Shown piece by piece: positions 17,092 through 62,646 of a DNA stretch of 64,000 bases; position 1 is the first letter of the stretch, and each line of letters begins with the position of its first letter. The position numbers were made by a program, and so were the translations under genes. Under the pieces are notes generated by a model. That model was not told where the DNA came from and did not search any database. It saw only the letters and a list, made by a program, of their open reading frames with translations. Origin of the DNA: Telopea speciosissima (Eukaryota > Streptophyta > Magnoliopsida > Proteales > Proteaceae); assembly GCF_018873765.1 (NCBI RefSeq), contig NC_057926.1, positions 51,813,878-51,877,877 of the forward strand. Direction: 5' to 3'.

Positions 17092-18923
17092 GGCTCTCTG
17101 CTTTGCTTTGCTTTCTCTGCTAATTCTTTGTCGAATGACTTGAGGGGGGATTTAAGTGAGAGATGAGAGAGACTATGGACCGTTTGATGGTGGGAGATAT
17201 TATCCCTGAGACATTCTCTGAGTGAGATTTAAGAAAGGACTTCTGCTTCTGGTACTGGTACCGTCTGATCAAGTGGTTCCCACCCACAAGATTTTCTGGG
17301 CCAGAAATTGGTCAGGTTTCTGGTTTGATTAAAGACCAACTCCGGGTTTTCCGTTTGATACTAAGTAGGAAAGTTTCTGGAGCTGAAAGGAAACCAATCA
17401 TTTAGTACTAATGAGGGTTAAAAGTGCGTGACAGGATTAGGTAATCCTGGAACCGTGTAACATGTGTTTGGGTCAAAGTCTATCGAACTTGGACTTTTCT
17501 CGCCAAAACAAACCGGTGGTTTTTTTAATAAATCCCACTATTCGGGTCATATTATGCGAACTGGTTCGACCAGCTGGTCCAATCCAGATTCGACATTACA
17601 TGCATCATAATGCCTTGTCCCAAGTAAGGTTTTAGTAATCGGTATCGGTATCAGCCGATACTGATCCGGATCGGTCTGTATCGGTTTGAATCGATCAAGT
17701 TTACCCTTATTTTCTTAAAAAAAAAAAAGATTTTTTTAAACATCTTTATCCTTGTTCGTATTAATCCATTAATACAGGATCAATCAAGAATCAATATCAA
17801 TCTCCATCAATACCATTACAAATCGATCGGTTCGATAACAATTCCTCAAACCATGGTCACATGAGCAACAAAGACAGGACTATCTATATCAATCATAGAC
17901 ACATTGAAAAGATAAGTCAGTACAAGGGAGAAGAGAAAGCTTGGTAAAAGATTGAGCTCTTCTTTTCCCTCGTACTTTCTCTTTTTTCCATTTTTGTTTT
18001 AAGAGTGAAGAAAGAGATAATGTTTCAGAAGGGAATTAAGGATTCTGAGGTTTTTGATGATTTTTTTTTCTTCTTCTAGTTGCTTTTTAGTGTTTTTCAT
18101 TTTCTTAGATTGTCAATTCCTTTACATTTCTTTACACACAAATCTAGACAAAAGACAGCTATTTCCACCCCCAATGATGGAGTTGCCATGTTCACCTCAC
18201 ATATATGATTTGGAATCAAATGGGCCGAGCCAACCCCAAAGTCTTTCAATTTCAGGTCACACCTGACCAGACTTGGTTCATTTAGCATTTGATACATGCA
18301 GGCCAGGTAGACCGTAGCTAAAGCTTAAGAACCGGATTGGACCATCCAAGCAAACCAAGATAGATCGGACACTGTCCTTTTATATTGACATCATACACGT
18401 TTGAAAGAAGAGAAAAGTTTCGGTGGATGTTGATTTGTATGTAAGAGATCCACATCATTAAATAAGGAGAGAGAATGAGAGAGCTTCAGAAAAGGGTGCA
18501 TATCGCATTTGTTAAAAAAATGATCTATTTTACACAATATATAAGGTGGATTGGACCAAATGGTCACAACTATAGGTTATGTGGGTCCAGATTAGGTGAT
18601 CTAAAATTGACCATTTGAAAGAAAATTATGAAACAATGATTTTCGGTTTTGTATATCCCCTTAAAACAAAACCATATAAGGTTAACTCTTAATTCTTATT
18701 TAATTTGACATATAATTAACAGTGAATGATAAGTCCATTTTTATTGACCAGCAAGTCCTTCCATTTTGTCCATTGTGTAATAGAAAATTATGGAGAGTTT
18801 TGTTTTGTTATGTTGTGGTTTCTTAATTCTAAGGAGCTCTAGTTTGGTCACTATCGTAAACTGCTTAAAAGTTTTATAGGAATAGAATCTTAAGTTGACA
18901 GTAAACAAGACAATTTAATTTAT
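17092..18923. other. 5' flank of PDLP and intergenic repeats
   Basis: Promoter and 5' leader of the PDLP gene lie just above 17091; no TATA box was chosen. At 17636-17830 is a decayed copy of a repeat rich in ATCGGTATCGG, also seen at 20940-21060, 26070-26250 and 40815-41060. No gene is supported. Confidence 0.45.
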
Positions 18924-24620: not shown

Positions 24621-27600
24621 TTATGCTTTTTTGTGAGCTGCTGTTCTCTCCTCCAACTTTTCAAAGAGGGTTCCATCATAAACACCTCTAATGGTATCTT
24701 TGTCTAGAAAACCATTTTTGTCTTTGCCCAAGAGGTATAATACCTTCCATTCCGTCCAGGCGCCCAACCTACCACCAAGTCCATAATTTTTAACTCGTTA
24801 GGTTTTAAAGAAAGCCATAAAGATATAAAACACTAATTAGAATGACATACTAACCATCCTGCGTAGTCTTTAGGAACCCGGTTGTCCTTGAGCAATTCAG
24901 ATAACTCTTTTGATGTTAAAGCGTTTGGATTAGTATGGGCATGTTTATGAAAGATCTGCTCAAACTTTTCTGGAACGAATCTGAACAACATCAAAATTGA
25001 CATTAGAGAAACAGAACGATGAAACAGCATCGGAGACAAAGTAAAGGTTTGAAAGCTTCATTCCATACTAAAGGTATGTAAATTAATATTTAGTAAGTTC
25101 TGTACAAATAAAATGTTTCTCTAAAGAGGATTTACTTTGCCAAATATTTTTCCATGAGTTTCAAACTGTGCAATCCAATCTATAGGCACTCTGTGTTATT
25201 GGTGAAGCCTGATCTCAGTTTAATCCAGGAAGAACTGTTGATTCTTCCCCAATTCTGGTTTATCCACGTAAACCTTTATGTTTTGTGTGTGTGTGATCCT
25301 GTTTTGTTATTTCTTCTGTCAATCGTTGTTCTGCTGCATTGTTAATTCCTAACACTATGTTGATGGGAAATGGATAGAAAATAAAATCAATCAAAAGACA
25401 TATTAGTGACTAGTTTGCTATTTTGTTATTAGTTAACCTCATCACATGACTAGGATAATCAGATGGGTCTATTCGAAGACTGCCTATTGTAAGGATGATC
25501 TAGATTGAAGGACATGCATTCAACTGTTGTAGAAAATTGGAGTTGTTTAAAACAACATTGAAGGTTGGTGATTTCTCAATAGCACAACAGGTATAGTTAA
25601 AAGATTTGAAGATATTAGATATGTAAACATTCTCAGCAGACATTTTCTACTTGGTGCAATGTATAGGATGGCACTCAATAATGAAAGTGTATAGGATCTT
25701 TACCTTCCTTCTGTATCATAGACACCACTGTCGCTCCCATGTTTGCCTTTCTGAATGTTCTTTACCTCAATAGGGAAGAGAAGAGAGAATTTTCCCTACA
25801 GCAGAGATGATGAGGCAATGGATCTTAGTTAGGATAAATATGAAAAACATAAATTGAGATTAGAATGAGACAGGCTAGCCCAAAGAATCAATTAATGCAA
25901 TATTTTGAATCAGGAGAAAAAGAAAGAGAAGCTTGTCAGAATTGCCCTTTCAAGAGATAAAATTAGGGGAAAGACATTGTTAGCAACAACTAGTACAAGG
26001 ATTGATTTGTAGAAACTCAACTCAAATGTATTCTAAAGCATAGTTTTACAGGGTGTGGAGAAAGCCATGGATTAAGGTATCAGAATTGGATCGGCCATGG
26101 CCGATATCGATACCAGCTTGATACCGGATTGTTGGTACAAAACCAGGGAGGGCAAAATAGTCAAAAAAATTATCAGAATCTGGGGGGGGGGGGGGGAGAG
26201 GGGGCAAAATTGTCCAATATGGCTGATCCGTATTGGGATCAACTAGATAAGAAAACAATATGGTCTGACTCCCCTATTGAGCCCACCTGATACAACGCGA
26301 TAATTACTCTCCTGGCATTCAGATTCTCAAGGATCCAAACAGGGGGCCTTGTAGGCAATATGAATAACAGCATTTTGTTATAAAAACTCCATCTAACAGA
26401 ACAGATTTTAACCCAAGAGATGGCCCAACCTATGTCTGATACAAAGCAATCCCTATAAGTTTTTCAGTTCAGCAAAACCCCAACCATCTAACAGTTCAAT
26501 AATTCAGAAGGTTAAAGAATAAGCAATAGTAATTTGCTTGTCGGTGGCGCAATCATTGTTTGGGGAGTTGGATGGACAAAATCATGAGTCTGGGAGTATT
26601 TCAGACACTTCGTATATAAGGAAGAGTTAATTATTCAATTTACATGTTCTATTGCTCCGACTATAAACTTCATTATCTGGTCGGCAGACCAACAAACTTT
26701 TATCATATTTATTTCTTGGTTTAATATTTTTCAATAGCCATCATTCCTATTCCTACTGAATTTGCTCCATCTTCTACTCAGTCATTGGCTGTTAACTGGA
26801 CTCCTCCCTCGGCTCCTTGGGTTAAATTGAATGTGGATGCTGCTTGGGTAAAAGGTTCGAATAAAGGTGGGATTGGGAGTATCATAAGAGATCATAGAGG
26901 CCTTCCTCTCTCGGCGTATTCCTTTGGGGTTCATTGTGACTCTGCCTTTATTGGAGAAGCTATAGCCATTCGATCTGGTCTATTGCTGGCTATCAAGGGC
27001 GGTTTCAAGAAGATTTTGGTAGAATCTGACTGCTCCAGTTTAATCAACCAGATCGCTTTTTCTAGTCCGGATATTACTATTAGCAGCATCTATCATGATA
27101 TTGTTCTTTTACAAAAATCTTTTGATGATTGTGCTTTCTCCTTTGTTCCAAGGTCTGCCAATTCTGTGGCTGATTCCTTGGCCAGGTCTGCCCTTTGGTT
27201 GAGTCCCGAAAGTTTGGCCTCTTACCTCTCCTTGGCTTCTAAGTCTGTGTGAAGATGAAGCCATTGGTTGTATTGGCTTTTTCGGTCAATGAATTTCTCT
27301 TTACCAAAAAAAAAATCTTGCGGTTCTTATTCCTCATATCTGAGGCTGACCCAAGGAAGTAATTGATGGGTCACTCCTTCCCTTCTTCATGGCGCATTAA
27401 TTAATGCGGATAAGCTTATCTTAATGGCCACCAAATTCTGTGACATGATAAAACAATGTGCCAATTCCAACCGTTTGATAGAGAGTGAACAGTTTAGTGT
27501 CTTTCTGATCCATAATCAGGGATTAAGAGGCTCAGGGCTCTAGGGTTCTTCTAAAGTCCAATTATGGCGGTGGTGGTGGTGGGTATGTAAAAGAAGATGA

Positions 27601-28778
27601 TGATTTGGGGAAGATGAGGGCATTTTGGGGTTTTTAGGAATGAGTATCTAGGGGTAAAATAGTCTTTTCAAATTAGGTCAGGGTAATACATAAATAAGGG
27701 CAATTAGGTCTTTTCATTTATAAAAATAAAACAAAGGGTAAAATAGTCATTTTTAATTAGTTTAGGACAACAAATAAATGAGGATAATTAAGTCTTTCCA
27801 GATTTAAGAAAATAGAGCAAAAGGTAAAATAGTCAAAATTTTGGCATATAATGGTGGTATTTAACGGATTGAACTTATCTGGCATTTGGGGTGTAAAACA
27901 GAGGTAGTACGGGGAATATTAAAGAGGCGGTTACGAGGAATATTGGGTGCATTATAAGGGGGTACGTGTAGTTTACCCATAAGTTAATTAGAAAAAGAAA
28001 AAAAAAAATACACTATAAAGAAAGATTATGAAAGCCCAGGTCGTCCTTAAACTTCATTTGCCAGAGATGTCTAAAACTATAATTTAATGGATGATTCTGC
28101 AATTTAAAATTATAGATCAGATGGGCTCTCGCAGTCCTGCAACTCCTCCTGCCTAGGTGTTGGCTTCGATGTGTTTCCAACTTTTTGAAAAGCATTATAG
28201 AAACATATGGACCCAGTTCTCACGAAGAAACCAGAGAGATTTGGGAAAGTAGAGAGACTTACAGGACGAGTTTTACCACTGAGAGCGACATTAATGAAGA
28301 TAGAAGCAACGGTAGACAGAGGAATCCCAGAGCCGATCGCACGGAACCCTGAAATTTCATGAAAACATGGAAAAAGAAGTAGAAGAAGCAGAGAGATGTT
28401 AGAAATTTGAAAGAGGGGGTTCGAAAAAGAATAAAAAACCAGTACTTTAAACCATATATATGACGAGAAAGGAAGGAAAAAGGAAAGGAAAGGAAAGGAA
28501 GAACCTTTGAAGGTTTCCCAAGGGTAGATAAGCCCGTCTTTGTTCCTGTCGAAGAAAGCCGCATGCTTTTGAAGAGGTTCCAGATCGTCGCCATAGATAT
28601 CTGCAACTGTTTTTTCAGTTTCAGTAAATATCTAAAATAGAGACATAGGGAGAAGAACACAAACAAAACAAAAGAAACCCAGTTTGAATCATTTGAAAAA
28701 AAAAAGAGGCAAATCATGTCAGAAGAACTTACCCTGGTTTTTTGTATCATCAGAGAGTGCAACAGAAGAGGAAGCCAT
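24621..28778 (-). CDS. Caleosin / peroxygenase
   Basis: A caleosin-family protein: a Ca2+-binding, haem-dependent lipid peroxygenase of lipid droplets, ER or plasma membrane, acting in oxylipin and stress metabolism. The exons I infer are 28778-28733, 28600-28505, 28348-28263, 25795-25704, 24980-24855 and 24768-24621, which join in phase to 197 residues. Visible are the EF-hand loop D33[11 protein letters not shown]44, the two His expected to bind haem (His28 in LQKHAAFF and His95 in [11 protein letters not shown]), a hydrophobic segment (about 54-70, [17 protein letters not shown]) and the C-terminal blocks [34 protein letters not shown] and [13 protein letters not shown]. The N-terminus is short ([15 protein letters not shown]), closer to the small peroxygenase class than to seed oleosome caleosins. 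Intron 3 is 2.47 kb and holds a LINE end on the opposite strand. No disruption was found. Confidence 0.95.
26067..26250. repeat. ATCGGTATCGG-type repeat with poly-G tract
   Basis: Within caleosin intron 3, a stretch with GATCGGCCATGGCCGATATCG resembles patches at 17636, 20940 and 40815. It contains a run of about 16 G at 26181-26196. It is an old dispersed repeat of unknown class. Confidence 0.45.
26530..27315 (+). mobile_element. 5'-truncated L1-type LINE with intact RNase H frame
   Basis: Lies in caleosin intron 3, antisense to the gene. The frame 26785-27252 (155 codons) encodes a complete RNase H-like domain with the four acidic positions in place: [10 protein letters not shown] (Asp), [13 protein letters not shown] (Glu), LVESDCSSL (Asp) and [13 protein letters not shown] (Asp). 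A 3' leader and a run of ten A at 27306-27315 follow. The left boundary is uncertain and no target duplication was found. The protein is more likely a LINE ORF2 tail than a host gene. Confidence 0.75.
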
Positions 28779-46030: not shown

Positions 46031-47611
46031 CACTTAGCAATACAATTACATGGTGTTAGAGAGCCTTGACTGATAATTATTTGAAGTTAGAAGATCTCAT
46101 AGTGTAGAAAATAATGTGAACTTAAAACAATGTAGAAAAGAGTGAAAATCATAAACAACAATCACACAGTATACAAGGATTCACGTGGTTCAATAAAATT
46201 ACCTAACTCGACGGTTATTTGAGATCTGATTCATCATCTATGGAGAATAGGGTTACAACTACTCATCTTGACACCTCTCACTATAAATATATAGTAAAAC
46301 TCTACACAAATACAAATTACTGAAATATCCATGTAGCCCTACAAAATTTATACTTGGACTCTTCGAATCCTACGATCTCTTAAGGGTCCTTCATAATCAA
46401 CCCACTAATCCAAACAACGGAATATAAGACATGACACGTAACTCAGGACCCAGACAGCCCTACATAATTTAATTATAAAACAAAATAATATATACAAAGT
46501 GGAACACCAACAAGAATAATTTAAACAATTCAGCACATAAAACAAAAATAAGGCACCCACCCAATTACAAAAGAATTATATAATATACAAATTGTCTACG
46601 CCTAATTAAATTGTCCACCACTGTGGCACTAGGCACAACTTGTAGTGCTGAAACTAGTCCATCAAGCGGAGTAATATTGTTTGTTAAGGTTAGAGTTGGA
46701 AGTAAAAACGAAGAAGGGAGGAGTTGAGTAAAAATAGAAGATTTAATTATAAATCATTTATATCCCTCTGTTGCCGTGATCTCTTAAAATAAGATTACCC
46801 AACATCCTACAAAAAATGGTTCGATCAGGTTCTCGTACGAAAACCTTATCCCAATCAAATTGTGATAATATGAAAAAAAGGTCTTCGAGCTCCATGTTCA
46901 CACTCTTCATCATAAAAAGTTGTTCCAGTTTGACGATTTCACATTCTTTGGGACAAGCTCATCGTTTGTAGTCGACCATTTCACTTGCGGGGCGTATAAC
47001 AGATAACTCTCAAATTCATATAAACAATGATAAGATATAATGGAACATTGCAATCAATTCAAATCATTTCAATTTCAAAAGAAAAACAAAGAAATAGACA
47101 GAACAGGAGCTAGTTTAATGTGGGTGATATGCACAACTTTTTTTTAACCATCAAATTAGGTAAAATTTCATTAGTTTCCTCCAATATCTCATGTTTTTTC
47201 TGTTGTATGGCTCGAGCTACTTTTTCTGGTAAGATAAGATCGATGGGCACTTGGAAACCATAGATGAACATGGTTCCAGTTTGACATGTTTTGAATTCTT
47301 TGCTATATTAAAATGTTATTATATTGAATCAACAAACAAGGACATTTTTGTATGACACACAAAGAATAAGTGAATACCTTATTACTAACTTTTCATTAGA
47401 AAGGTATTTGTCTTGTAGGAAGTTTTACATGATGGTCCAGTAACTACTTACACAGATGGTTTTTGTCATGAGAATTATGAGTAGCATTGCCAACGATCAC
47501 ATCATAGCTATCGTCTTGGCTGACATGTGTCACATAAAGATGTGAAAAGATCAATGAACATTCGTCAACGTTTCCATCTTAGATACATGATTGTTATTTT
47601 TTCACCAATGA

Positions 47612-47772
47612 GAGCGCACGATGTGGCACAGTAGTGGTGACATTTTCACCATACATAGAAGGTAGGGCGATCATTCTGGTCCTTGTTATGAATGAGCGAG
47701 GCTCTTTTCTATCAAAAAAAAAAAAAATTTTGGGGGAGGCCCTTGCGTCCCACACAGGAAACGTTCTCCATT
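47612..47772 (-). mobile_element. MITE relic within the tandem array
   Basis: The right end, read on the minus strand, GGAGAACGTTTCCTGTGTGG, resembles the start of the element at 14283. A 13-A run interrupts it, and the left edge is unclear. Confidence 0.4.
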
Positions 47773-48299
47773 AATTTTTTTAGGTTAAAGTTATAATAAA
47801 AGGGAGTCGGTTAGTAGCCTGCCGGATCATAGAATATTAGATGGTCAAACCTAATATTCGCCATGTGACGGATCTATTAAGGCTTAAATATTATACGCTA
47901 ATAGCCTAATAGGTTCTTACCTTATCTATAAAATTTTGAGTTAAATCGATCAGTGTTTTGCAGTATAAAGCTTTAACGATTCAAAACATTGTGCAAGAAA
48001 ATTTGAATGGAAAAAATTAAATGTGAAAATATGCCGATACTTATGGTGTACGTAAATTATTGAGTTTTGCAAGAAAAGAATAAAAATAAAAATGGCATAT
48101 AGCTAATCTAGAGTCTAGATCATGCCCTTTTTAATCAAGGGTTGGATTTGTCAAATCATCTTTTCAAGTAGCCATGGCACATTAGGTGGTTGAGTATATG
48201 GAAGCTTCCATGGGTGGACTAACCTAAGAAATTTGACCTAAAACGATTTCAATTTAAAAAACTGTTTTTTTTAGAACACGGGTGTTTACACTCTATTTT

Positions 48300-48560
48300 T
48301 GGTCTATTTTGGTCAATAGAGAAATAGATCAAAATCTATTTCAACCAAGATTGACCTATTAGTCAGTGACTGGAAACGATCAAAAAATGGTCATGACTAA
48401 AAAACGGACAGAAAATGGTCATGATAAAAAATGGTTAATGACCAAAACAGTCAAAAAATGGTCATGTCAGTGACTGATGGATTGGCAGTGACCGATAAAT
48501 GGTCAATGACCGATGAACAGTGAGTAGGGTGATTATAACCAATTCCCAAAGAAATGGATA
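48300..48560 (+). repeat. AAAATGGTCATGA-type short tandem motifs
   Basis: Short irregular repeats of AAAATGGTCATGA and AATGGTCAATGACC recur about eight times. There is no coding content. The origin is unknown. Confidence 0.5.
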
Positions 48561-48568
48561 GTTATAAA

Positions 48569-48850
48569 ACTACTTTTTTCGCTAAAAGATCCTTGCATTA
48601 AAAATTCAACCAAAAGAAAACAGAGAACCAGAAAACCCAACTACAAACAGAGATGGCAAACCATCTCCCCAAACCCATTACATAAATCTGTAACTAGGCA
48701 AGCCTATGGCATTACGACCCAGCAACTCTTCAATATGACTGGGAAAAGAAAGGTTAGACACAGACTCTCCAGTAATCGTCGCATGTTTAGCCAAGTAGTC
48801 TGCTATAGGATTTGCTTCCCTGTAGTTATGAAACTACTTGTTAACTACAG
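48569..48850 (-). mobile_element. LINE 3' end (RNase H tail)
   Basis: The minus strand reads FHNYREANPIADYLAKHATI and, further on, IEELLGRNAIGLPSYRFM before a stop. This is the same RNase H C-terminus as the LINE at 1207-1969 (YREGNASADTLAKR ... YYRFC). The 3' tail ends near GCGAAAAAAG at the left edge. Only the last 280 bases remain. Confidence 0.7.
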
Positions 48851-51260
48851 AAACCGGCCACTTGAACTGCCAATGATGTCTATAAAAAGAAAAAATTCAA
48901 AACAAAGGAAAGGATCCACAAATCAATGAAACAATTCTATACATTTATATTCACAGATCAATCAAACTATTCTTTACATTTATCTTTTTGTTTTTTTTTT
49001 CTAGTTGTAAATGGTTTCCGTTCTTTTCCTTAAAAGAACCTGTTGGGGTTACTCTCCACCAGTACAATCAGATGCAATGATGTATCATTCAAAGTCAAAT
49101 TGAAGATCTCTGCAGTCCTTCAATGGCAAGATGGGAGGATCTCAAAAGAGGCGTCATTGGCTACTGGCAGTCGGCAATTTGGTGTTGTTAGCACATTTTT
49201 AAGACTTGTGTGGCGCTCTGGTGCCAACATCAAATTGAGGCTTCAACCCGACAATTGGTTGTTATTAGCACACTTACCATGGAGATTTTGGTGCCGGCAT
49301 CACACTGAAGCATTGATAGTGCGTTAATGGAGGCTTTGTAAACATTTTACCATAGATGTATCTAGAGAGAAAATTAATTTGATTTCTTCTTTTTCTTCTT
49401 CTTTTTCTTGGCATTGCAATATATCTCTGCATTTTTAAAGAAAACTCCTTGGATTACCAAGGCAATGGTAGGACCCATTCTTTGATTCAATTCATTTTAT
49501 GGCATTTTCAATTCACCGCTGCTGATGCTGAATTTAGTGGAAACAAGGGGATGTGTTTCCACTATGTGTTTCCACTAGGTGATGTCCATTATAAAAGATA
49601 ATCTATTGAAATCAAACTAATTGAACAATTATACTAAAGAATGCACACGTCCGAATTGAACTCAAGTTTCGGGTAGACAACACCATCGACGCAGTGATCA
49701 CCCACCAGTTCGTTTATGGAGATTCCTTAAAGAATTGAGAAGTTCCTTGTAGAGATGTAGCTTAGAATTGCGAAGTTTCTGGCAGATGGAGCATAATGAA
49801 CGACAAAATCCTTGTAGATGAGGAGGTGCAGACCCTCTCAAACTCCATGTAACCCATTTCAAACTCCACACACCCTCTCATTATTTGGAGAAGCTCTTCT
49901 CCTTTCATTCCCTCTGCCTGTAAAAGTTCCATTGTAAGATTCAGAACTATAAGGTCAAAATAATGAAGTTCGAGTTTGAAATTCTGAGCTAGAAAAGATC
50001 ACAAAAGAATAGTCAATTCGTGGAGTACCAAAATGAAATTTAATTATTTTAAGTTGGTAGACCTCATTGTGTAGAAAAATATGAACATAAAACAATGTAG
50101 AAAATAGTGAAAATTGCGAACAACAATCACACAATACTACTAAAGTACTAAGGATTTACGTGGTTTAGTAAAATTGCCTAAGTCTAGGGTGATATGAGAT
50201 CTGTTTCGATAACTATCAATGGAAAATAGGGTTATAGTTACTCATCCTCACACTCTCTCAATTACATAGAAAACCATCCCACTACAAATATATAGTGAAA
50301 TTTTACATAAACACAAATTATGAAAATATCCATGTAGCCCTACAAAATTTTTCCTTAGGGTCTTCAGACCCTAAAGTCTCTTAATGGTCCTTCAGAATTA
50401 ACCCACTAATCCATACGACGGAATACAAGACATCATACCCAACACAAGACTCAAGCAACCTACATAATTTTATTTATAAAACAAAAGAAATATATACATT
50501 GTGGGACACCTACCTTAGCCCTAAACCAGCAATAATAATTTAACCAAGTCATCTCACAAAACAAAAATAAGACACCCATCCCCAATACAAAATAAATTAT
50601 ATTATATGCAAATTGTCTAAGCCTAAATTGTATTCCAAACGAACCTGCTTTACCTCATCCGCAAGTATCATAATTCATAGCTGATAGCTTCATCCCGATC
50701 GTAACTGATTTGATTCTGCTTTTTAATAAAATTTTCTATGGTTTTACCCTTGGATCATATCAGTGGATTGGTATTTGATCAGTCAAGAATCGAGATTGGG
50801 ATAAGTCTCAGCTGATCCTGATCTAAGACCGATATTACGGAACTTGGACAGAATATGTATCTCTATGTCAGTTAAAGAACATCCATTTGCTTGTGAGGTA
50901 AAGGATGCTGTATAAAATTGTCGAATACCGATATTATATAGAATTTCATTAGTTTCTTCCGATATCTCATTTTTTTTTTCAGTTTTGTGGCTCGAATACG
51001 GCTACGCTAGTAAGTTAAGATGGCACTTGGAAACCATATGATGAACATTGGTCCAATTTGTCATGTTTTGAATTCTTTGTCATATTAAGATGTTATTATA
51101 TTGAATCAACAAACAAGGAAATTTTTGTATGAGACACAAAGAATAAGTGAATACCTTGTAGGGAGTTTTACATGATGGTCCAGTAACGACTTACACAGAG
51201 ACAGTTGTGCATGTCATGAGAATTATGAGCGGGGTACCCACGTTAACATCATAAGATTTA

Positions 51261-51395
51261 GGGAGAATGTTTACTATGCCGCAGCGTAGCTGTGCGCAGG
51301 CACATGGGCCTGCCACTTAGGGGGCAGGATGGTAATTGTGCCTACCCCCATGTGCCTGGACACAACCTACGTTGCGGTACAGAGAAAAGCACCCC
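51261..51395 (+). mobile_element. MITE, GTTCTC family, inside array block B
   Basis: Starts GGGAGAATGTTTACTATGCC and ends GGTACAGAGAAAAGCACCCC. The flanks are identical 9-mers, TAAGATTTA (51252-51260 and 51396-51404). The paralogous blocks at 57180 and 59545 read CATCATAAGACTTATAGTT with no element, giving two natural empty sites. Confidence 0.92.
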
Positions 51396-51474
51396 TAAGA
51401 TTTAATAGTTATCCTCTTAGCTGAGATGTGTCACGTAAGGGTGTGAAAAGATGAATGTTCACCAACATTTCTAT

Positions 51475-51636
51475 AGACCTTTATCTGCTCCATTTCTTGG
51501 GCGGGTCCATTTCCCAAGTTCCTCTAATAGAGGAGGCAGAAATGACCATCCTACCCCCTGCCCAGGTGGGGTCCACACCCTCTATTAGAGGAACTTGGGG
51601 AAATAAAGCGGACGGGAAATGAACAGATAAAAATAC
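51475..51636. mobile_element. Fold-back MITE inside array block B
   Basis: Arms AAGTTCCTCTAATAGAGG and CCTCTATTAGAGGAACTT pair near-perfectly; the outer ends are CTTTATCTG and CAGATAAAAA. The flanks CATTTCTAT and CGTTTCTAT form a 9-bp duplication with one change. Paralogues at 57260 and 59620 show the empty site AATGTTTCTATCTTA. Confidence 0.88.
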
Positions 51637-51706
51637 CGTTTCTATCTTAGATGCGTGATTGGTCGATCCTTCACCAATGTTTAACCCTTTATGCCCAGCT
51701 CAAACC

Positions 51707-53000
51707 AGTGATCAAGAATTCGATCGAAACCTGTCAAAACCGTCAAGTTGTCTCGGTTTCGACAGATTCTGAGACGAGTTGGATTGAAACTTTTAAAAAT
51801 CCCTTAACTCAGTCTGGTTTCGAGCATTTCGATTTGGCTTCAATCGAAACTGACGGTTTCAATCGAAAGCAGGTTGAAACGGTTGAAACCATGACCAAAT
51901 AGTATGCTTTTTCCTTGGTTTTAGCTGAACTGAACATGATGCCAATAATTCACAGACCAAGCATCTTTACTTTTAGGTGCAAAACCATACTACACAGCCT
52001 TATCTTCTACTCCTCCTACCTTCTTTTTCCCATTCAAACCAATGATAGCCTTATCTTCTATTCCTATCTTCTTCTCCTATTCTTTATTTTTGCATCTTCT
52101 GCTTCTTATTTATTTATTTCTTTTAGTTAAAATTCCATTATGGGTCAAAATCGTCCATCCTTCCAAAGATTTTTGGTTCAAAATGAAGAAAAAGATCTGA
52201 TGAAGAAATATTTGGGAGAAATGAAGCTGTTCTTGGTATTCCTCTAGTTCTATTCTATTATCGTCCATTGTAATTGTTTAAATTGTATGCTGTGTTGTTT
52301 TGTTGATTTACCTTTTTATTTTTGGGTTCATAGATCTCGAAAAGAGGATCATTTCAAGGAGGAGAGCAGTTTTTATGGAGGCATCTCCTTGTATGACAAA
52401 AAGTTTCTCAGGTGGGCTGGGGAGATCAATAAAGAGTTTGACATTAAATTCCAACCCTGTGCATTTCTTTTTCCAATCGGTAATGGACTATCAGACCAAT
52501 TGGTCCCATAACATGTCATGGGATACATATGTTGTGCATTTGGAGGAACGGCTTCGCAATCTTCAGTGGTACGCTGCTCGTGGATTAGACTCACCAAGAA
52601 ACTCCACATGAAATTAAAAAGGGGCATCTTAATGTTTTATTTGGATTCAATGTATTATTCATGGTTCAAGTACTTTATAATTATGTGAACTAATTATAAA
52701 TTTATAATACCATTTTATTGTCTGTATTGTATCAGCACGTACGTTAGTAAACTTGGGTCAATAACCACAAGTATTATTTTCAATGATTTTTTGATGAATG
52801 TAATTCATGGATTGTGTTTAAAATGTGAAAAGTAGGCAACCTGTAAAAAATCAGACCTAAAAAACATTGTTTTGGGGTCGAAACCTAGGTTTCCCCATCA
52901 ATGGGAAAAAATCCTAGATTTCGACCGAGATATGGTCAAAACCGAGACAAACTCGATTTCTGACTGATCGAAACCTCGAAACCCGGGTTTTAAAACCTTG
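51707..53000. mobile_element. Unclassified 1.3 kb element
   Basis: Bounded by identical 9-mers GCTCAAACC (51698-51706 and 53001-53009). Both ends carry GTTGTCTCGGTTTCGAC-like sequence in inverted orientation, and the right edge reads GGGTTTTAAAACCTTG. It interrupts array block C. The inside holds overlapping open frames at 52287-52611, with NWSHNMSWDTYVVHLEERLR and LQWYAARGLDSP that look protein-like but match no family I know. A Mutator-like non-autonomous element is the best guess. Confidence 0.6.
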
Positions 53001-54284
53001 GCTCAAACCCATCTAAAGCCCAGCTAACCATCCCATCCGAAACCCATCTATTTTCCTTTTTTTTCTTTCTTTCTTGTTTTTGTTAAAGTTATAATAAAAG
53101 GGAGACCATATAATATTAGATGATCAGACCTAATATCCACCATGTGGCAGATTAATTAAGGCCTAAATATTATGCACTAACTAGGTTCCTTCATTATCTA
53201 TCAAATTTTGAATTAAATCAGAGTTTGCCATGTGGCAGTATAAAACTTTAACGATTCATAACGTTTAAAAAAAAATATACATGAAAAACTATCCCAATAT
53301 ATGGGTGTTCGAAATTTTTTTGAGTTTAGCTCAAAAAAAAAAAAAAAAAAAAAAGAAATTTCACAGACACCCCCTAAAAGTATTTAATATCTCAGAAATT
53401 TATCATAGTTGGTCAAAATGTCACAGACACCCCTTATTTTTATGAATTTATTTCAATTTAATCCATTTTGTTAGTCTCTACAGTTAAGTATCTGTTAACT
53501 CTTTTTAAATGATGAAATTACCCTTACTTTAGTGAAATCCCTAAAAATTTATTATTTTTTTTCTCCCCTTCTTCTTCTCCTTCTTCACCAACACCACCAC
53601 CACCACCACCTCCAGCCCTCCGTCTCTTGCTCCCCTGCAACCCCGCCACCACCCTCTCCAGTCTCCCTCGCCCGACCATGCTCTCAGCAATCCAACCCCA
53701 TAAAAACCCTAACTCTACAAATTAAAACCTTAACCCACCAACGTATGGCGTAGTCCAAAAAAGCCTTATGCTCTATGAAACAGAAAAAGGAAACAAACAC
53801 AGAATACTCTGCCCATCTGCCATTGCCATCTGCTAGATGAAAACGAAAGCAAAGGTTGCAGATTGGCGATAGACGGAGAGGAACACAAACATAATTTACC
53901 AATTTCATCACAACAAAAGGAAAACACAGAAAGAGTGGAGACTAGACTGTAGAATACATATATTGAGCAAATACTTTTTTCGGCCATTTCCTAATTTTCT
54001 TGCTCCACCCACCAGAAACTTTGTTCTGTTCTTCCCTTCGGCAAGAATTCAAAATTTAAAAATAAAAAATGATTAAGTAGAGAGAGAGAGAGAGAGAGAA
54101 TATTTTCATCATATTTTGATTTTTAATACTATATTTGAATGAAAAACACCGACTAACACAAGTAGTAATTTTGTAGAAAATTGCATCGAATCAAATTGAT
54201 AAAAACAGGGGAAGTAATCCTTATCGGAAATCCTCTTGTGGGGAAATGTCTGTGTGTGTGTGAGAGAGAGAAAGAGAGATTACT

Positions 54285-54720
54285 AACCCTCTCGAGGGCT
54301 CCAAGGCACCTACTGAAGCCGAATAGGAGGAGTTTCTGCAATTCCGCTCCAAGTTCCTAACGACGGCAGTGGGCGTGGCGTTATGATGTGAAGAAATTAA
54401 ACGCAGCGGGACAACTAAGGAGGTGATCTAATGAAGCCGAATCCCGCAAAAACAAAGGATTGTCTCGCATGTCGCGTTGGGCTGTGGAATATGGATGTTG
54501 CGATTGAGAAGAGACGTTTGCAGCGAATTCACACACTTCTGCGAATCGTCCGGCGTCATAGGCCCATTCGATGACGACGCCGGAGCTGGTGCCGGAACCT
54601 GCAATGCAAACTTAGCATGCGCCGTAAACAGCCACGCCACTAGAATGAGACAGCAACAGCTACTGTCAAGAGACTCCCTCTGCAAATGGGGTAGCTACAT
54701 GCGTTGATTCCATGGTCGCC
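54285..54720 (-). pseudogene. Captured fragment of an At4g28100-like GPI-anchored protein gene
   Basis: The minus strand reads SSCCCLILVAWLFTAHAKFA, then MTPDDSQKCVNSLQTSLL, PQPNATCETILCFCGIRLH and, after a stop and frame changes, NATPTAVVRNLERNCRNSS and SRCLGALER. This is the central Cys-rich region of the plant family of uncharacterised GPI-anchored proteins exemplified by At4g28100 (recalled from memory). The signal peptide, N-terminal part and GPI-attachment region are missing. An in-frame TAG replaces the expected Gln codon after GIRLH, and at least one frameshift follows, so it cannot make the normal protein. The shortened open frame 54685-54428 (85 codons) has a hydrophobic N-terminus but is probably a by-product. 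Confidence 0.82.
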
Positions 54721-54767
54721 TTAGTCGGAGCAGGTGATGGGAGCCGGAGCCGCAGCCATAGAGGGAA

Positions 54768-54893
54768 GAAGATGAAATGACAGTTTTGTCCTTTTATTTA
54801 AATAACTAAGGGGTAAAATGGATATTTAGGGAAGAAGATGAAATGACAGTTTCGTCCTTTTATTTAAATAACTAAGGGGTAAAATGGATATTT
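54768..54893. repeat. Two-copy 62-bp direct repeat
   Basis: Two near-identical copies of a 62-bp unit begin GAAGAAGATGAAATGACAG and include GGGGTAAAATGGATATTT. They lie just inside the right inverted end of the gene-capturing element, where some Mutator-like elements carry subterminal repeats. Confidence 0.85.
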
Positions 54894-56959
54894 CACCTTT
54901 GGGTACTACCTGTGCTTAACGTTTGGGGTGTCTCTGACATTTTGACCAAGTATGATAAGTTTCTGAGATATTGGATACTTTTAGGGGGTGTCCGTAAAAT
55001 TAAAAAAAAAACAAAACATATGACTAATTTAGAGTGTAGACCATGCCTTTCATAATCAACGGTTGGATTTGTTAAATCAGGTGACTATGGCACATTTGGT
55101 GGTTGAATGTATGAAAGTTTCCATGGATGAATCGACCCCAAGAAATTTTGCCTAAAAGGAATTCAATTTTAAAAACCGTTTTTCTAGAACATGGCATGTT
55201 GCACAAATGGAAATTTTGTGATAGACAAAAATCAAAGTCTCCTCCTCATCTAGTTATATGTCAAGTTTCATCTCAAATGGAGTTGGGCAAATAACAACAT
55301 AAAAATTTTGAAAATCTAAAGAAAATAAATGGTGACAAATAAAAGGATTATCTCAATACACGAGTTCTGTAAATAATTTTGGGGTTGTAGGATGACATGA
55401 AATTAACTTTCTTAACTCTTTATCTTAACCCCAAAAATGGCAAGTACCATTAGGGTACCTAACCTTTAGTGAAAGTACACCTAAAATACCTTACATTTAC
55501 AATATTATGTTTAGGGTATCTATATTTCATAAATATTATGTTTTGAGATATCGATACTTCATTTTGTCGTCCTGGATTTAACTCAGGAGATTTCCCATGC
55601 CCTAGAAGCATTCCAAATCTTTTTGGTCTAGGATTTTTTTTTTTTTAAATGCTTATTCAATATGTTTTAAAAATCATAGAATTGGATTTACATAACTAAC
55701 CCTTACTCTATTTAATAAATAAGATGGAGAGAGAGAATGCTCTCATTTGCTAGTTAGAGAGGATACGTGTGTGAAATTCGATTTCTCTTTCATTTGCCTT
55801 TTTTGTTTGTTTTTGGGTCTTTTTCCTTCTTATTCTTCTCCATATGAGTGGAATAATTATCACCTCACTGAAATCTTGCACGACAGGTTGATTCTGAATT
55901 CTCTCAAGTTCTTGAGTGATCTTAGCAATGTCAACATTGCAATTTTGAAACGTAATATGACTCCATCGTCCAAGGCCAAAATTTCAGAGAGTAATGAAAT
56001 AAACTGAAATCAAATCTAGTCGGTGCTCGAGAACCGGTGGTAGTTCAAGACGAAGTTATATTGCCATTACAAGCCAAGACAACTAGTTGAAAACCATTAC
56101 AACAACGCAAAAAAGATAGAAAAACCATGTGGAAATTATTGTCACAACAATCCACAACTGTTGTACGAGAATTGGTGGCAGTTCAACCAACACTTTGTGC
56201 AGTAGGCACCACTTCCTCAATCCGACAAGTTGGAGCTTATTCTCGTCCCTCTTTGCTATAGGTTTGTCTAACAAAAAAGAAAAAAAAAACATGGTTGATT
56301 GATAACTTTTGAATGCAGGATAATGGTTGGATCTCTTTCTTCCTCCTCCTTGTCAATCTCTTGCATATAGTATTTAGGGTAAACGATGCTGAACTACACA
56401 TTAGAAAGTCATTTGAAAAGGTGGATGCTGAACTTGGGATCCTATTAGACACAAGAAGCAAATTTAGATGGGTACTATCACCCATACGATCCATAAAATG
56501 ACTGTTTAAATCTTAACCTATTTTTGATCTTATGCATAAATTCTAGTCCCGATAAGAAAACTAAACAAGATCTATTACCAACCTTTGATAGTTCCAGCGT
56601 ACTAAACTCACAAGCTATAAGCTGTATAGGCAGATGCCAAGCTTAACTTTTAAAAATATCATTTCATTAGTTTACTCCAATATCTCACTTTCTTCTTGTA
56701 AGATATGATGGCACTAAAAACCAAATGAAGAGCATTGTTCCAGTTTTTCATGCTTTGAATTCTTTGCTATATTAAGATATGTAATTATATTGAATCAACA
56801 AACCCAAGGAATTTTCTTTTATGAGACAAAGAATTAAGTAAATAGCTTCCTTGTACCTGATCACTACAAATGTATTTCTCTCCCAATGTGTTTAACATGA
56901 CGGCCAGTAACCACTTACACAGACTGGTGTGCTTTTCATGAGAATTATGGTTGGCATTA

Positions 56960-57158
56960 GGATTTTTATCCTCTCCAATTCCTTAAGTGTGGCAGTGCGG
57001 CAGTGCTAAGTGGAGATGTTGACACCTGGCAACTGTCGCATCCAACGGTCCGAGCTCATTGATATGGACGGTTAGATGCAGCAGCTGCTAGGTGTCGACA
57101 TCTCCACCTAGCACTGCTGCACTGCCACACTTTAAGGAATTGAAGAGGATAATTTTCC
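56960..57158. mobile_element. Fold-back MITE inside array block B
   Basis: The left arm GGATTTTTATCCTCTCCAAT and the complement of the right arm, GGAAAATTATCCTCTTCAAT, pair and continue through AGTGTGGCAGTGC and GTGGAGATGT for about 80 bp. The flanks GTTGGCATTA (56950-56959) and GTTGGTATTA (57159-57168) differ at one base. Paralogous block copies near 47485 and 51232 lack it. Confidence 0.9.
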
Positions 57159-60100
57159 GTTGGTATTACCAATGTTCACATCATAAGACTTATAGTTGTC
57201 CTCTTAGCTGACATGCGTCACGTATACTTAGTGAAAATATGAATGTTCACCAATGTTTCTATCTTAGTAGGCGTGACAATTCTCAACCTGATCGTTTTAT
57301 ACATGGGGACAATATGCCGATATATGAGGTGTATGTAAATTGTTGAGTTTTGCTAGAAAAAAATAAAACTAAAAATGGCATGCATATGGCTAATCTAGAG
57401 TCTAGACCATTCCCTTTTTAATCAATGGTTGGATTTATCAAATCATTTTTCCATGTAGCCATGACACATTAGGTGGTTGAGTGTATGGAATCTTCCATGG
57501 GTGGACCGACACCTAGAAAATTTACCTAAAAGGATTTCAATTTAAAAAACTGTTTTTCTAGAACATGGGATGTCCATTATAACATATAATCTATTGAAAT
57601 CGAACTAATTGAACAGTTATACACATATACTAAAGAATGCACTCGTCCGAACTTAAGTTTAGGGTAGACGACACCATCGACGCATTGATCACCCACCAGT
57701 TCGGTTATGGAGACAGATTCCTTAAAAGGAATTGCGAAGTTCCTGGTAGAGATGGAACTCACTGGTTATGGAGACAAATTCCTTACAGAATTGCGAAGTT
57801 CTTGGCAGAGATGGAGCGTAATTAGTGACTGAATCCTTGAGGGTGAGGAGGTGCAGACCCTCACAACCTCCATGTAACCCATTTCAAACCCCACACACCC
57901 TCCCTCATTATTTGAAGAAGCTCTTCTCCTTTCATTCCCTGTGCCTGTAATGGTTCCATTGTAAGAGTTAGAGCTATAAGGTCAAAATAATGAAGTTCGA
58001 GTTTGAAATTTTGAGCTAGAAAAAATCACAGAAGCATGGTCAATTCATGGAGTACCAAAATGAAATTTAATTATTTTAAGTTAATAGACCTCATAATGTA
58101 GAAAAATATGAACTTAAAATAATGCTAAAAATAGTGAAAATCGCAAACAACAATTACACAATACGCCTAAGGATTTACGTGGTTCAATAAAATTGCCTAA
58201 GTCTAGGGTGATACAAGATCTGCTTCAATAACTATCAATGAAGAATAAGGTTATAGTTGCTCATCCTCACACACTCTCTCAAATTACATAGAAAACCATC
58301 CCACTACGAATATATACTGAAACTTTACATAAGCACAAATTACTAAAATATCCATGTAGTCCTACAAAATTTTTCATTGGACTCTTCAGACCTACGACGG
58401 TCCTTCAGAATTAACCCATTAATCGATGCAATGGAATGAAAGACATCACACCCAACACAAGACCCAAGCAGACCTACCTAATTTTATTTATAAAACAAAA
58501 AATATATATACAAAATGAGACAGCCAATTTAGCGCTAAACCAGCAATAATAATTTAAACAATTCATCACACAAAACAAAAATAAGACACCCATCCCCAAT
58601 ACAAAAGAAATTATATTATATGCAAATTGACTAAGCCTAAACTGTCTTCCAAAACAACCTGCTTACCCTCATCGGCAAGTATCATAATTCATAGCACATA
58701 GCTTCAAGATTGATAGTACGAACTCTGGACAGGAATTGTAACTAAACTGGGAGCAGTTCAAGCGTGATATTGTCATTACAATCCGAGAGAACTAATTGTA
58801 AACCATTACAACATCGCAAAAAAGATAGGAAAACCATGTGGAAATTACTGTAGTTGACAATCCACTACTGTTGTGGGAGAATTGGTGGCAGTTCAAGCAC
58901 AAAGTAGTAATGCCATATCAGAATTTGAAAGTTGGCATCGATAATCTTCAAGCAATACAGCGCAAGTCTGTGTTGTTTTCTGTTCTAATATAACAACTCC
59001 TTAATATCCTGAAAAGGATGCAGAACTACACATTAGAAAGTCATGACCACGTTTAAATCTTAACCTATTTTTTTTTTTAATCTTATTCATAAATTCAAAA
59101 AGTTGTAGTCTGGAAAAAGAAAACTAAACAATGTCTATTATTAGTAGAGACGAGTGTATAAAGATATTGAATATCAGGGAAAAGGAGGTCGAGGAAATAG
59201 CATACGACACTTTTATAAGCTGTATAGACGGATGCGAAGCCTAACCGTTGATTCAAATATCATTTCATTAGTTTACTCCAATGTCTCACTTTCTTCTAGT
59301 AAGATATGATGGAACTAGAAACCATATGAAGAGCATTGTTCCAGTTTGTCATGCTTTGAATTCTTTGTAATATTAAGATGTAATTATATTGAATCAACAA
59401 ACCCAAGGAATTTTCTTTTATGAGACACAAAGCATTAAGTAAATAATAACTTCCTTGTACCTTTTCACTACAAATGTATGTCTCTTCCAACGAGTTTAAC
59501 ATGACGGTCCAGTAACTACTTACACAGACTGGTGTGTTTTTCACGTTCACATCATAAGACTTATAGTTATCCTCTTAGCTGATATGTGTCACGTATACTA
59601 GTGAAAAGATGAACGTTCACCAATGTTTCTATCTTAATAGGAGTGGCAATTGATCCTTTTATACAAGTGGGAGGGAGACCTTCACTATCTGTAGTGAAGA
59701 TTAGGTTTAGGTATGTTGTTAAGAATAGAGGTTTGTCAAATAGTTGATTCAGTATGGTTTCAATCTGTTTCTTATGTACCAAGTCAGTTCGAATCAGACC
59801 AATAAGGTGTTCGGTCTATAAAAATCAAATCGAGAATCAATATCTATCGGTCCGGTTAGTTTGAGTTTGTTATCAGTCTGGTTCAATGGTTTTTTTCATC
59901 GGTCCAATATTTTATTTTTTCATATATAAAAAAGTAAACAAATATTGAAATTTTCTGCTATAAGTCGGTCCAGTCGTTTTGACCTTATAACAATTTCTAA
60001 AATCCAAAATTAATACCGAACAGATAATGAGTTCAATCGATCATTTCGGTTTGATTGATTCAATTGGAACGGTCTATATAACCCCTGTTTACCCCTTTTT

Positions 60101-60961: not shown

Positions 60962-61142
60962 CCCCATCTTTCTCATTTAATAAATCAACTTAAAAATTTA
61001 TTTGTACATATTTTATTATACTAGTTGGAGTTTGACCAGATTACTTTAACACCTTTAAAGTTATCTGCAACTTAAGTTTGGTTTTGCTTCTACACAACCG
61101 AATTAAGAGAAGGGGGAGATAAGATTCACTAATAGAGCGAAA

Positions 61143-62646
61143 ATGGAGAATGGAAGAGGCGAAGAAGAAGGATACGATCGGGCCAAGGAGGTGAAGCAAT
61201 TTGACGATTCCAAAATCGGAGTAAAGGGACTCGTCGACTCAGGCATCACCTCCATCCCTCGTTTCTTCATTCACCCACCCGATTCTCTCTCCTGCACCGC
61301 CACACCCACTGCCACCGCCATCGCAGCTTCTCCTCCTGCGTCTAATCCCATCCCTACCGTCGATCTCACCGACTTTGATTCAGACCGTAGATCGATCATC
61401 GTTGACCAAATCCGAGACGCCTCCCGTACTCTGGGCTTCTTTCAGGTCACTAACCATGGCATCCCTTCCGAAGTCATCGACCGTACGATCGCCGCCATCA
61501 AAGGCTTCAACGAGCAGTCGGTGGATATCAAAGCACTCCACTACAACCGCGATGTGGGACGCAGCGTATCATTTTCGTCAAACTTCGATCTCTACACATC
61601 GAAGGCTGCCAATTGGAGGGACACGATTGAATTAAGGTGGGGCCCGAATTTTGACATCAGTGAAATCCCGGAGATCTGTCGGAGTGAGCTCGTTGAGTGG
61701 GACAGGCAGGTTCAACGGTTGGGAGAGACGTTGATGGAGATCTTATCGGAAGGCTTGGGACTGGAGGGTGGAAGATTGAAGGCGTTGAGCTGCACAGAAG
61801 GGAAGACTATGGTGGCCCACTACTATCCGTTCTGTCCTCAACCAGATCTGACGCTTGGGACTTCGTCTCACACGGATCCAGGAGTGCTGACCGTGTTGCT
61901 GCAGGACCAGATCGGAGGGTTGCAGGTGAAGCACGGGGAGCATTGGGTGAATGTTCAGCCCGTACCTGGTGCTCTTGTCATCAACATCGGGGATATCCTC
62001 CAGGTAACCAAATTCATTTAATCTGAACCGGATGATTGAACCATGTTAGATAACCACCTGACAAACCCTAGTTTGGTGTGTAAACCATCGGTTAAACCAA
62101 AAAAAGAAAGGGGACCTACTCTTTCAAGGCTTCGCTAAAAACTCAATTTTTATCCTCTCAAATGCATTTTTAAAGTATATTGGCTAGTGCACGGCACTTG
62201 AGAAGATGAAAATACCCTTCGTTGTTATCGTATGTAAAAAAAACTCATCTTCCAACCACAATGGGGTGAAATTACCGCCCCACCCCCATGAAAGACAGAA
62301 ATCCCACCCCTAAGATACCAACGAACTCTCATTGGTTGTTGCACATATGTAGCCCCTCCAGTCCCCCATTATATGTGAGATTCGTTATATTTTTCAGGTT
62401 ATTTCCAATGATGGATATAGGAGCGTGGAGCACAGAGTGTTGGCCAATCATCTTCTGCAACCACGCATCTCAATTGCTATTTTTTTCAATCCAAGTAAGA
62501 GAGAGGACTTATATGGACCCCTTCCAGAGCTGATATCACAAGATAAACCAGCCCTTTATCGGCCATTTACGTTGTCAGAATTCTTAGGAAGGTTTTTCAC
62601 AAGGGGGTTGGGCGACAAATCTTTGATAAGCCACTTTCAACTGTGA
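61143..62646 (+). CDS. 2-oxoglutarate/Fe(II)-dependent dioxygenase (ACC oxidase homologue type)
   Basis: A soluble DOXC-class oxygenase that couples 2-oxoglutarate decarboxylation to substrate hydroxylation or demethylation. Two exons, 61143-62003 and 62398-62646, give 369 residues, with borders CAG|GTAACC and TTTTCAG|GTT in phase. The N-terminus YDRAKEVKQFDDSKIGVKGLVDSGITSIP is the hallmark of the group named 1-aminocyclopropane-1-carboxylate oxidase homologues. Next come DIOX_N (PIPTVDLTDF near 70; GFFQVTNHGIP near 98-108) and the double-stranded beta-helix. Iron ligands are His243 and Asp245 (SSHTDPG) and His299 (SVEHRV); the 2-oxoglutarate motif is R310-I-S312. YYPFCPQPDLT and NIGD are conserved. 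Everything needed for activity is present. The substrate cannot be told. True ethylene-forming ACC oxidase is unlikely because of the N-terminus. Intron 1 holds a MITE relic. Confidence 0.95.
62240..62385. mobile_element. MITE relic in the dioxygenase intron
   Basis: ATTACCGCCCCACCCCCATG and AACTCTCATTGGTTGTTGC correspond to the core of the element at 14283-14438 (ACTCTCATTGGCTGG). The ends are too decayed to bound. Confidence 0.4.

Follow-up and report, generated by a model that had tools for sequence, protein, structure and literature searches.

The 64,000-bp stretch of the Telopea speciosissima genome analyzed here (contig NC_057926.1, forward-strand positions 51,813,878 to 51,877,877; "the window") contains, at 53352–55006, a transposon whose interior includes a piece of an At4g28100-like host gene, which would encode a GPI-anchored cell-surface protein. 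A sequence-only reading of the window had given this element 76-bp inverted ends, and these are real: 77 nt on either side (53357–53433 and 54925–55001) are 91% complementary, with 70 of 77 positions alike compared to at most 37 in 2,000 shuffles. Comparison with copies elsewhere in the genome extended the ends 5 bp outward, to the limits given above, which brings the terminal inverted repeats (TIRs) to ~82 bp. The subterminal direct repeats that the same reading put at 62 bp also exist, but they are 66 bp long, stand in tandem, and occur on the right side alone (Table 1). As it had further proposed, the element sits in a copy of an array of degenerate blocks (46074–59543; period ~4 kb; about 76–89% alike). 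Its flanks match array copies near 47.8–48.3 kb and 57.3–57.6 kb, both of which lack the element, and it is array sequence rather than host-gene exons that continues beyond its ends. The spacing of the array also suggests that one block is missing and that there is another insertion near 51.2–53.0 kb.

The genome searched measures 823 Mb, and the best candidates alone were scored, so that the copy numbers reported here are lower bounds. Family A, the Mutator-type family to which the window element belongs, has the ends GGGAAAATTTCACRGACACCCCC; a second family, B, has ends and subterminal stretches about 71–78% alike to those of A. In thirty related elements with two called ends, AATTTCACRGACACCCCC is preceded by GGGAA in family A and by GGGTT in family B. 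Exact 24-mer matches to the ends number 302 in the genome (138 on the plus strand, 164 on the minus strand) and 0 in a reversed control, so the inverted ends are not unrelated repeats. Among 100 end matches listed, 15 pairs face each other at a distance of at most 5 kb, with spans of 1.25–4.4 kb. A literature search with short end motifs returned nothing on transposons among the matches listed.

These elements are flanked by 9-bp target duplications. The duplication is perfect in 13 of the 30 elements, agrees at 8 or more positions in 21, and at 7 or more in 26 (rows that are not all independent, as L002–L004 and L006 represent one insertion and two L020 elements share a target), compared to 4, 11, and 55 of 870 in a cross-paired control. 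Low scores for L012 and L025 arise from left ends miscalled on an inner copy of the terminal motif, and L025 shows a perfect 9-bp repeat in a separate comparison. The count omits L038–L069, which are repeats of other loci or host-gene loci, and no end pair was obtained from L005, L010, L011, L014, L016, L018, L029, L032, L036, L071, or L073. When exact repeats of 6–12 bp were scored at the ends, 12 elements had 9 bp, one had 10 bp, and no other length occurred; 90% of the duplicated bases are A/T.

Duplications of 9–11 bp and long TIRs characterize the Mutator superfamily, and the family displays both. Elements of the hAT superfamily duplicate 8 bp, and PIF/Harbinger elements 3 bp. Assignment to hAT was rejected, as none of the 30 elements has an exact full-length repeat of 6, 7, or 8 bp; so was assignment to PIF/Harbinger, given 12 exact repeats of 9 bp and one of 10 bp, with 3-bp repeats not scored separately. 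A passage in PMC3310237 calls TIRs of 100–500 bp typical of Mutator-like elements (MULEs), longer than the ~82 bp found here, and the part of PMC2528002 that gives TIR and target duplication lengths for grapevine MULEs lists TIRs of 70–710 bp, a range that covers ours.

The gene fragment in the window element lies on the minus strand, and an intact homolog is present in the same genome at C1:44.59 Mb (L015). This parent gene is open, with a start codon and a single intron; judged by eye, its N-terminus is signal-like and its C-terminus hydrophobic. A paralog on C9 has matching exons. Cargo and parent agree at 83% over 976 columns with gaps counted and at 89.6% in gap-free columns, and a tblastn search with an At4g28100 protein sequence recovered both the parent (1.7e-85) and the window fragment (1.3e-45). 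Pfam returned zero families for either the window fragment or the At4g28100 protein, and a scan of viral contigs with the protein fragment found no relatives. In our reading of its frame, the exon 1 fragment lacks both the start codon and the signal peptide and contains a single in-frame stop along with three frame changes. No open frame of at least 120 aa occurs anywhere in the element. The cargo is a broken fragment that is not likely to function as protein. The 400-bp middle (53570–54060), which the sequence-only reading had regarded as a candidate second captured segment, dissolves into parent intron and family-A shell, the latter being the sequence common to elements with other interiors. 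The exon cargo has a GC content of 0.52, against about 0.40 for the shell. Elsewhere, at C3:26.47 Mb (L061), a partial 5′ copy of the parent ends close to the exon 1 breakpoint of the cargo, possibly by chance or as another broken paralog.

We give next to no credence to the idea that this segment is an ordinary local pseudogene or retrocopy. Its frame is broken, as such a relic's might be, but where a processed retrocopy would have lost the intron, it is retained (whole in family B, in part in family A); moreover, element sequence bounds the segment on both sides, the array copies lack it, and its relatives carry 9-bp duplications. The earlier description of the element as Pack-MULE-like is instead upheld by the long TIRs, the A/T-rich 9-bp duplications of the family, the lack of a frame of at least 120 aa, and a host-gene segment enclosed between the ends with its intact parent elsewhere. 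Cargo-bearing copies of family A are present at six sites that differ in their flanks (L001; the C8/C44/C298 group; L005; L014; L016; L018) and those of family B eight, pointing to movement and amplification after capture. The copies at C8:60833164–60919625 (three, roughly every 42 kb), C44:143284–144971, and C298:15747–16947 share their flanks; these are duplicated segments descending from one insertion rather than separate insertions.

Family B preserves the more complete cargo. It comprises a contiguous 1,260 bp of the parent (positions 1443–2702) spanning part of exon 1, the whole intron, and part of exon 2. In L007, L008, and L009 it aligns to the parent without a break, and in L012 and L013 almost without one; later inserts split it in L017 and L019, and it is truncated in L011. 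In seven of the eight B cargo loci a 30-bp direct repeat flanks the cargo on both sides, with L011 retaining one copy. Even allowing up to 4 mismatches, the 4 kb of the parent locus contain no match to these 30 bp. Four cargo-free B-shell loci (L070–L073), fetched from six candidates, all carry a single copy of the 30 bp in sequence that runs on unbroken to either side. Screening 22 A and 7 B copies for direct repeats of at least 13 bp, counting exact ones, detected the repeat in L007, L008, L012, L013, and L017 (the last with others too); in L009 and L019 it is present with mismatches only. At the exon 2 join, GGCA is common to shell and parent.

The shell around the 30 bp has a source of its own. 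It matches reading frames at C8:48.48 Mb (L074, 88%) and C1:28.99 Mb (L075, 73%), which themselves gave no significant Pfam or PDB match. The RRM_DME domain (PF15628) has six matches in the genome, four of them over the cut-off, at two loci alone: C8:48492063–48493866 and C1:29002165–29007348. Because the two N-terminal frames precede these matches by ~9–16 kb and share their strand, we take the 30 bp to have been captured, on sequence grounds, from a DEMETER/ROS1-like demethylase gene, in its N-terminal exon. A single Pack-MULE can bring several genes together. Both demethylase loci run unbroken through the 30-bp region (L074 with a 3-base gap), so that the shell with a single copy came first and the shell with two copies derives from it.

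This arrangement bears on how family B gained its cargo. In the local hopping model, published for Pack-TYPE elements (PMC8903248), two neighboring insertions with compatible ends are mobilized as one, together with the DNA between them. Applied to the B capture event, this appears quite improbable: the cargo sits within an internal stretch that is continuous in all four cargo-free shells fetched, element end sequences are absent at its joins, and 30 bp of internal sequence are doubled. Moreover, the donor locus, over ~1.2–1.4 kb on each side of the gene, has no match to the element ends. The scar is not what fusion of neighboring insertions would leave; it would fit either template switching that re-entered the shell ~30 bp upstream or the filling of staggered ends offset by 30 nt. 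Repair of offset nicks in plants yields duplications.

The cargo of family A carries the mark of this event. Beside exon 1, 6 of the 10 A cargo loci (L001–L005 and L018) have the 30 bp of family B at up to 4 mismatches, and a further 22 bp of demethylase sequence are present in five aligned A copies (L001–L004, L018) as well as in B copies L012 and L013. The tag alignment was confined to copies with the 30-bp match at 4 mismatches, and so is without L006; L005 falls outside the element set. In the window this captured demethylase stretch, ~52 bp at 54664–54715, does not figure in the sequence-only reading. The exon 1 breakpoint is identical in A and B. The A cargo forms one clade with support of 100/98 in a tree of 13 rows, 6 of them from A, which excludes the partial L010, L014, and L017; in another tree that keeps these three, A falls weakly next to L012/L013 (L016, L018, and L019 are in neither). 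From the six loci that keep B's 30 bp, the five with the 22-bp tag, and the single A clade, we trace a route from gene to B to A, and these sequence comparisons make it most likely that A received its cargo from a B element rather than from the gene itself. The element did carry a genic fragment into the window, as had been suggested, but family A apparently did not take it directly from the host gene.

The shared tag also makes it very improbable that families A and B captured the gene independently. Such an origin could account for the cargo running in opposite directions in the two families when their homologous ends are aligned, and for the 4 of 10 A cargo loci that show no 30-bp match at 4 mismatches (L006, L010, and L014; L016 lacks the end); it is contradicted by B's 30 bp in the remaining six loci, by the 22-bp tag shown in five of these, and by the identical breakpoint. 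As for how A received the cargo from B, either copying during repair or an ectopic exchange may have been involved. Exchange by ectopic recombination or gene conversion retains a modest chance, as the two families are alike enough at their ends and subterminal stretches to pair; the inversion of the cargo relative to those ends, and joins at overlaps of 2–4 bp (ATGG on the demethylase side, CC on the intron side) instead of long homology, make it unlikely.

Taken together, these data lead us to consider it probable, with fairly good confidence, that the window element is a family-A Pack-MULE with second-hand cargo that passed from the gene to B and on to A by internal capture. Under this proposal, a family-B MULE would first have taken up a piece of the N-terminal exon from a DEMETER/ROS1-like gene; of the two candidates, the C8:48.48 Mb locus is the closer. 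A break or stalled fork inside that demethylase fragment would then have been repaired by copying the 1,260 bp of exon 1, intron, and exon 2 from the C1 gene, leaving 30 bp of B shell on both sides of the cargo. Subsequently, a family-A element would have gained ~980 bp from B (part of the intron, exon 1, and the 30 bp plus 22 bp), with join overlaps of 2–4 bp, and the resulting element would have spread. The window copy, a family-A element that is non-autonomous and was presumably mobilized by the transposase of another MULE acting in trans, would have entered an A-run of the array. Because its outermost 5 bp at both ends have degraded into A-rich sequence, it is probably now immobile. The ends, the target duplications, the donor, the empty and filled shells, and the tag are observed directly; the repair mechanism, the B-to-A direction, and the trans-acting transposase are deduced.

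Several observations weigh against this proposal. The target duplication of the window copy agrees at 8 of 9 positions, but it is poly-A and unreadable within the A-run. Our confidence in the route is slightly lowered because the tag is seen in 6 of the 10 A cargo loci and not in all, and five of the seven B copies (L007, L008, L009, L017, L019) are without most of the 22 bp; the latter looks like deletion within the shell, as a comparison of sequence with L070 suggests. In the 13-row tree the B cargo copies form a star, so that the branch point of A is unplaced, and among A shells none was found that is empty at the exact pre-cargo junction. Two of the empty B-shell loci, L071 and L073, have one recognizable end each. 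The exon 2 join of B carries one extra T, and at its exon 1 join shell and parent overlap by about 1 bp. Finally, among the 22 A copies, L023 alone has a second long scar.

Other members of family A combine the same shell with different interiors. Of the 22 A copies, only L023 (39 bp) and L037 (13 bp) have exact direct repeats of at least 13 bp. In L023 (C10:1.93 Mb), ~60 bp of shell, 39 of them exact, are doubled around a 575-bp filler; this filler is repeated, occurring also at C4:18.39, C7:29.27, and C9:54.84 Mb at 95–98%. L037:989–2778 (C1:29.94 Mb) harbors a full-length, intron-free RBX1-like frame (PDB match 6e-60), in which HFHY replaces HFHC, with a 13-bp flanking repeat and a 3′ end that is A-rich over a short distance, inside a shell that is uninterrupted in L031. 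Since RBX1 exists in the genome as two exon-split loci and five intron-free copies, one with a stop (those besides L037 are on C4, C9, C6, and C658), this frame appears to be a retrocopy that inserted into a MULE. L033:1079–2960 (C5:0.9 Mb) and L034:1032–2827 (C2:11.8 Mb) contain an intron-free RRM and glycine-rich frame; in L033 the RRM scores 1.3e-21 and the frame continues from shell sequence as a single frame of 327 aa. L030 has a weak exonuclease-like match below the cut-off.

The captured sequences invite the question of regulatory effects. Exact matches of the window element to the coding sequence of the parent comprise 16 21-mers and 7 24-mers, which weakly permits, as far as sequence goes, small-RNA action on the parent. 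That the element is in fact a small-RNA source directed against the parent gene, as the sequence-only reading had proposed, appears improbable in view of ~10% divergence in gap-free columns and a longest exact coding run of 26 nt. It shares no exact 21-mers or 24-mers with the C9 paralog, and its exact runs in common with the C8 demethylase stretch do not exceed 18 nt. The cargo-free B-shell loci L070–L073, by comparison, have 10 to 147 exact 21-mers in common with that stretch. One could speculate, as a long shot, that small RNAs from B copies lower the activity of the demethylase gene and thereby couple demethylation to the transposon load, and that breaks in such fragments serve as landing pads for host genes that then pass between transposon families.

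Table 1. Parts of the family-A element and its insertion site, in window coordinates
Feature	Position	Strand	Remarks
Left flank: array repeat broken by the element	53104–53262	+	Match to array copies
A-run of the target site, left	53333–53354	.	Hides the target duplication; overlaps the degraded tip
Left TIR, family A	53352–53433	+	Tip of 5 bp degraded: AAAGA; mostly GGGAA in relatives
Inner copy of the terminal motif (21 bp)	53416–53436	+	60 bp inward of the end
Family-A shell, left part	53434–53736	+	Common to elements with other interiors; partly gapped here
Part of the intron of the At4g28100-like parent (C1:44.59 Mb)	53737–54287	-	CC overlap at the join to the shell
Part of exon 1 of the parent gene	54288–54663	-	Alignment to the parent
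30-bp stretch	54664–54693	+	Demethylase-exon derived; on both sides of the cargo in family B, on one side here
Further demethylase exon, 22 bp	54694–54715	+	Tag indicative of family B; overlaps the A shell by ATGG
Family-A shell, right part	54712–54924	+	Shell comparison
Two tandem 66-bp units in the right shell	54762–54893	+	98% alike
Right TIR	54925–55006	-	Tip of 5 bp degraded: AAAAA; mostly TTCCC in relatives
A-run of the target site, right	55002–55011	.	Overlaps the degraded tip
Right flank: array repeat resumes	55017–55199	+	Match to array copies

Elsewhere in the window are RVT_3 (RNase H-like) frames at 1316–1846 and 26725–27252, a Stress-antifung (PF01657) frame at 16312–17151, a caleosin frame at 28110–28631, and a 2OG oxygenase exon at 61107–62021.

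In this one genome the donor gene survives alongside both the unbroken and the filled forms of the shell, with a 30-bp duplication and short overlaps where the pieces join, which allows two published models of capture to be separated for a single event. Our results indicate that captured genes can pass between transposon families, so that the present carrier of a fragment may differ from the family that first took it up, and that MULEs also acquired and dispersed sequence of a host demethylase gene. The elements described here resemble known Pack-MULEs, with which they share long TIRs, 9-bp duplications, an internal host-gene fragment, presence at several sites, and a GC-rich exon within an AT-richer shell. 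They differ in that the cargo apparently came from another MULE family, whose tag is recognizable, and in that donor, empty shell, and filled shell all persist.

Gene capture is reviewed in PMC13317346, and a statement in PMC3310237 describes the mechanism of gene acquisition by Pack-MULEs as "yet to be understood." MULEs with tandem TIRs, as portrayed in that paper, likewise have repeated motifs in or beside the TIR and gene-fragment cargo, although what is repeated here is a 21-bp TIR motif and a 66-bp subterminal unit rather than the whole TIR. Pack-TYPE elements (PMC8903248) share with ours a family of shells with conserved ends and varying interiors; unlike local hopping, the event reconstructed here is internal, with joins that are free of element ends. 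For animals, PMC8277862 proposes gap filling and fork switching and calls application to plant Pack-MULEs "worth exploring." The FoSTeST Pack-TIRs described there correspond to ours in internal capture by template switching, an unlinked donor, short overlaps at the joins, and later transposition, whereas the elements reported here are of the Mutator type, come from a plant, and show a 30-bp duplication of the shell around the filler.

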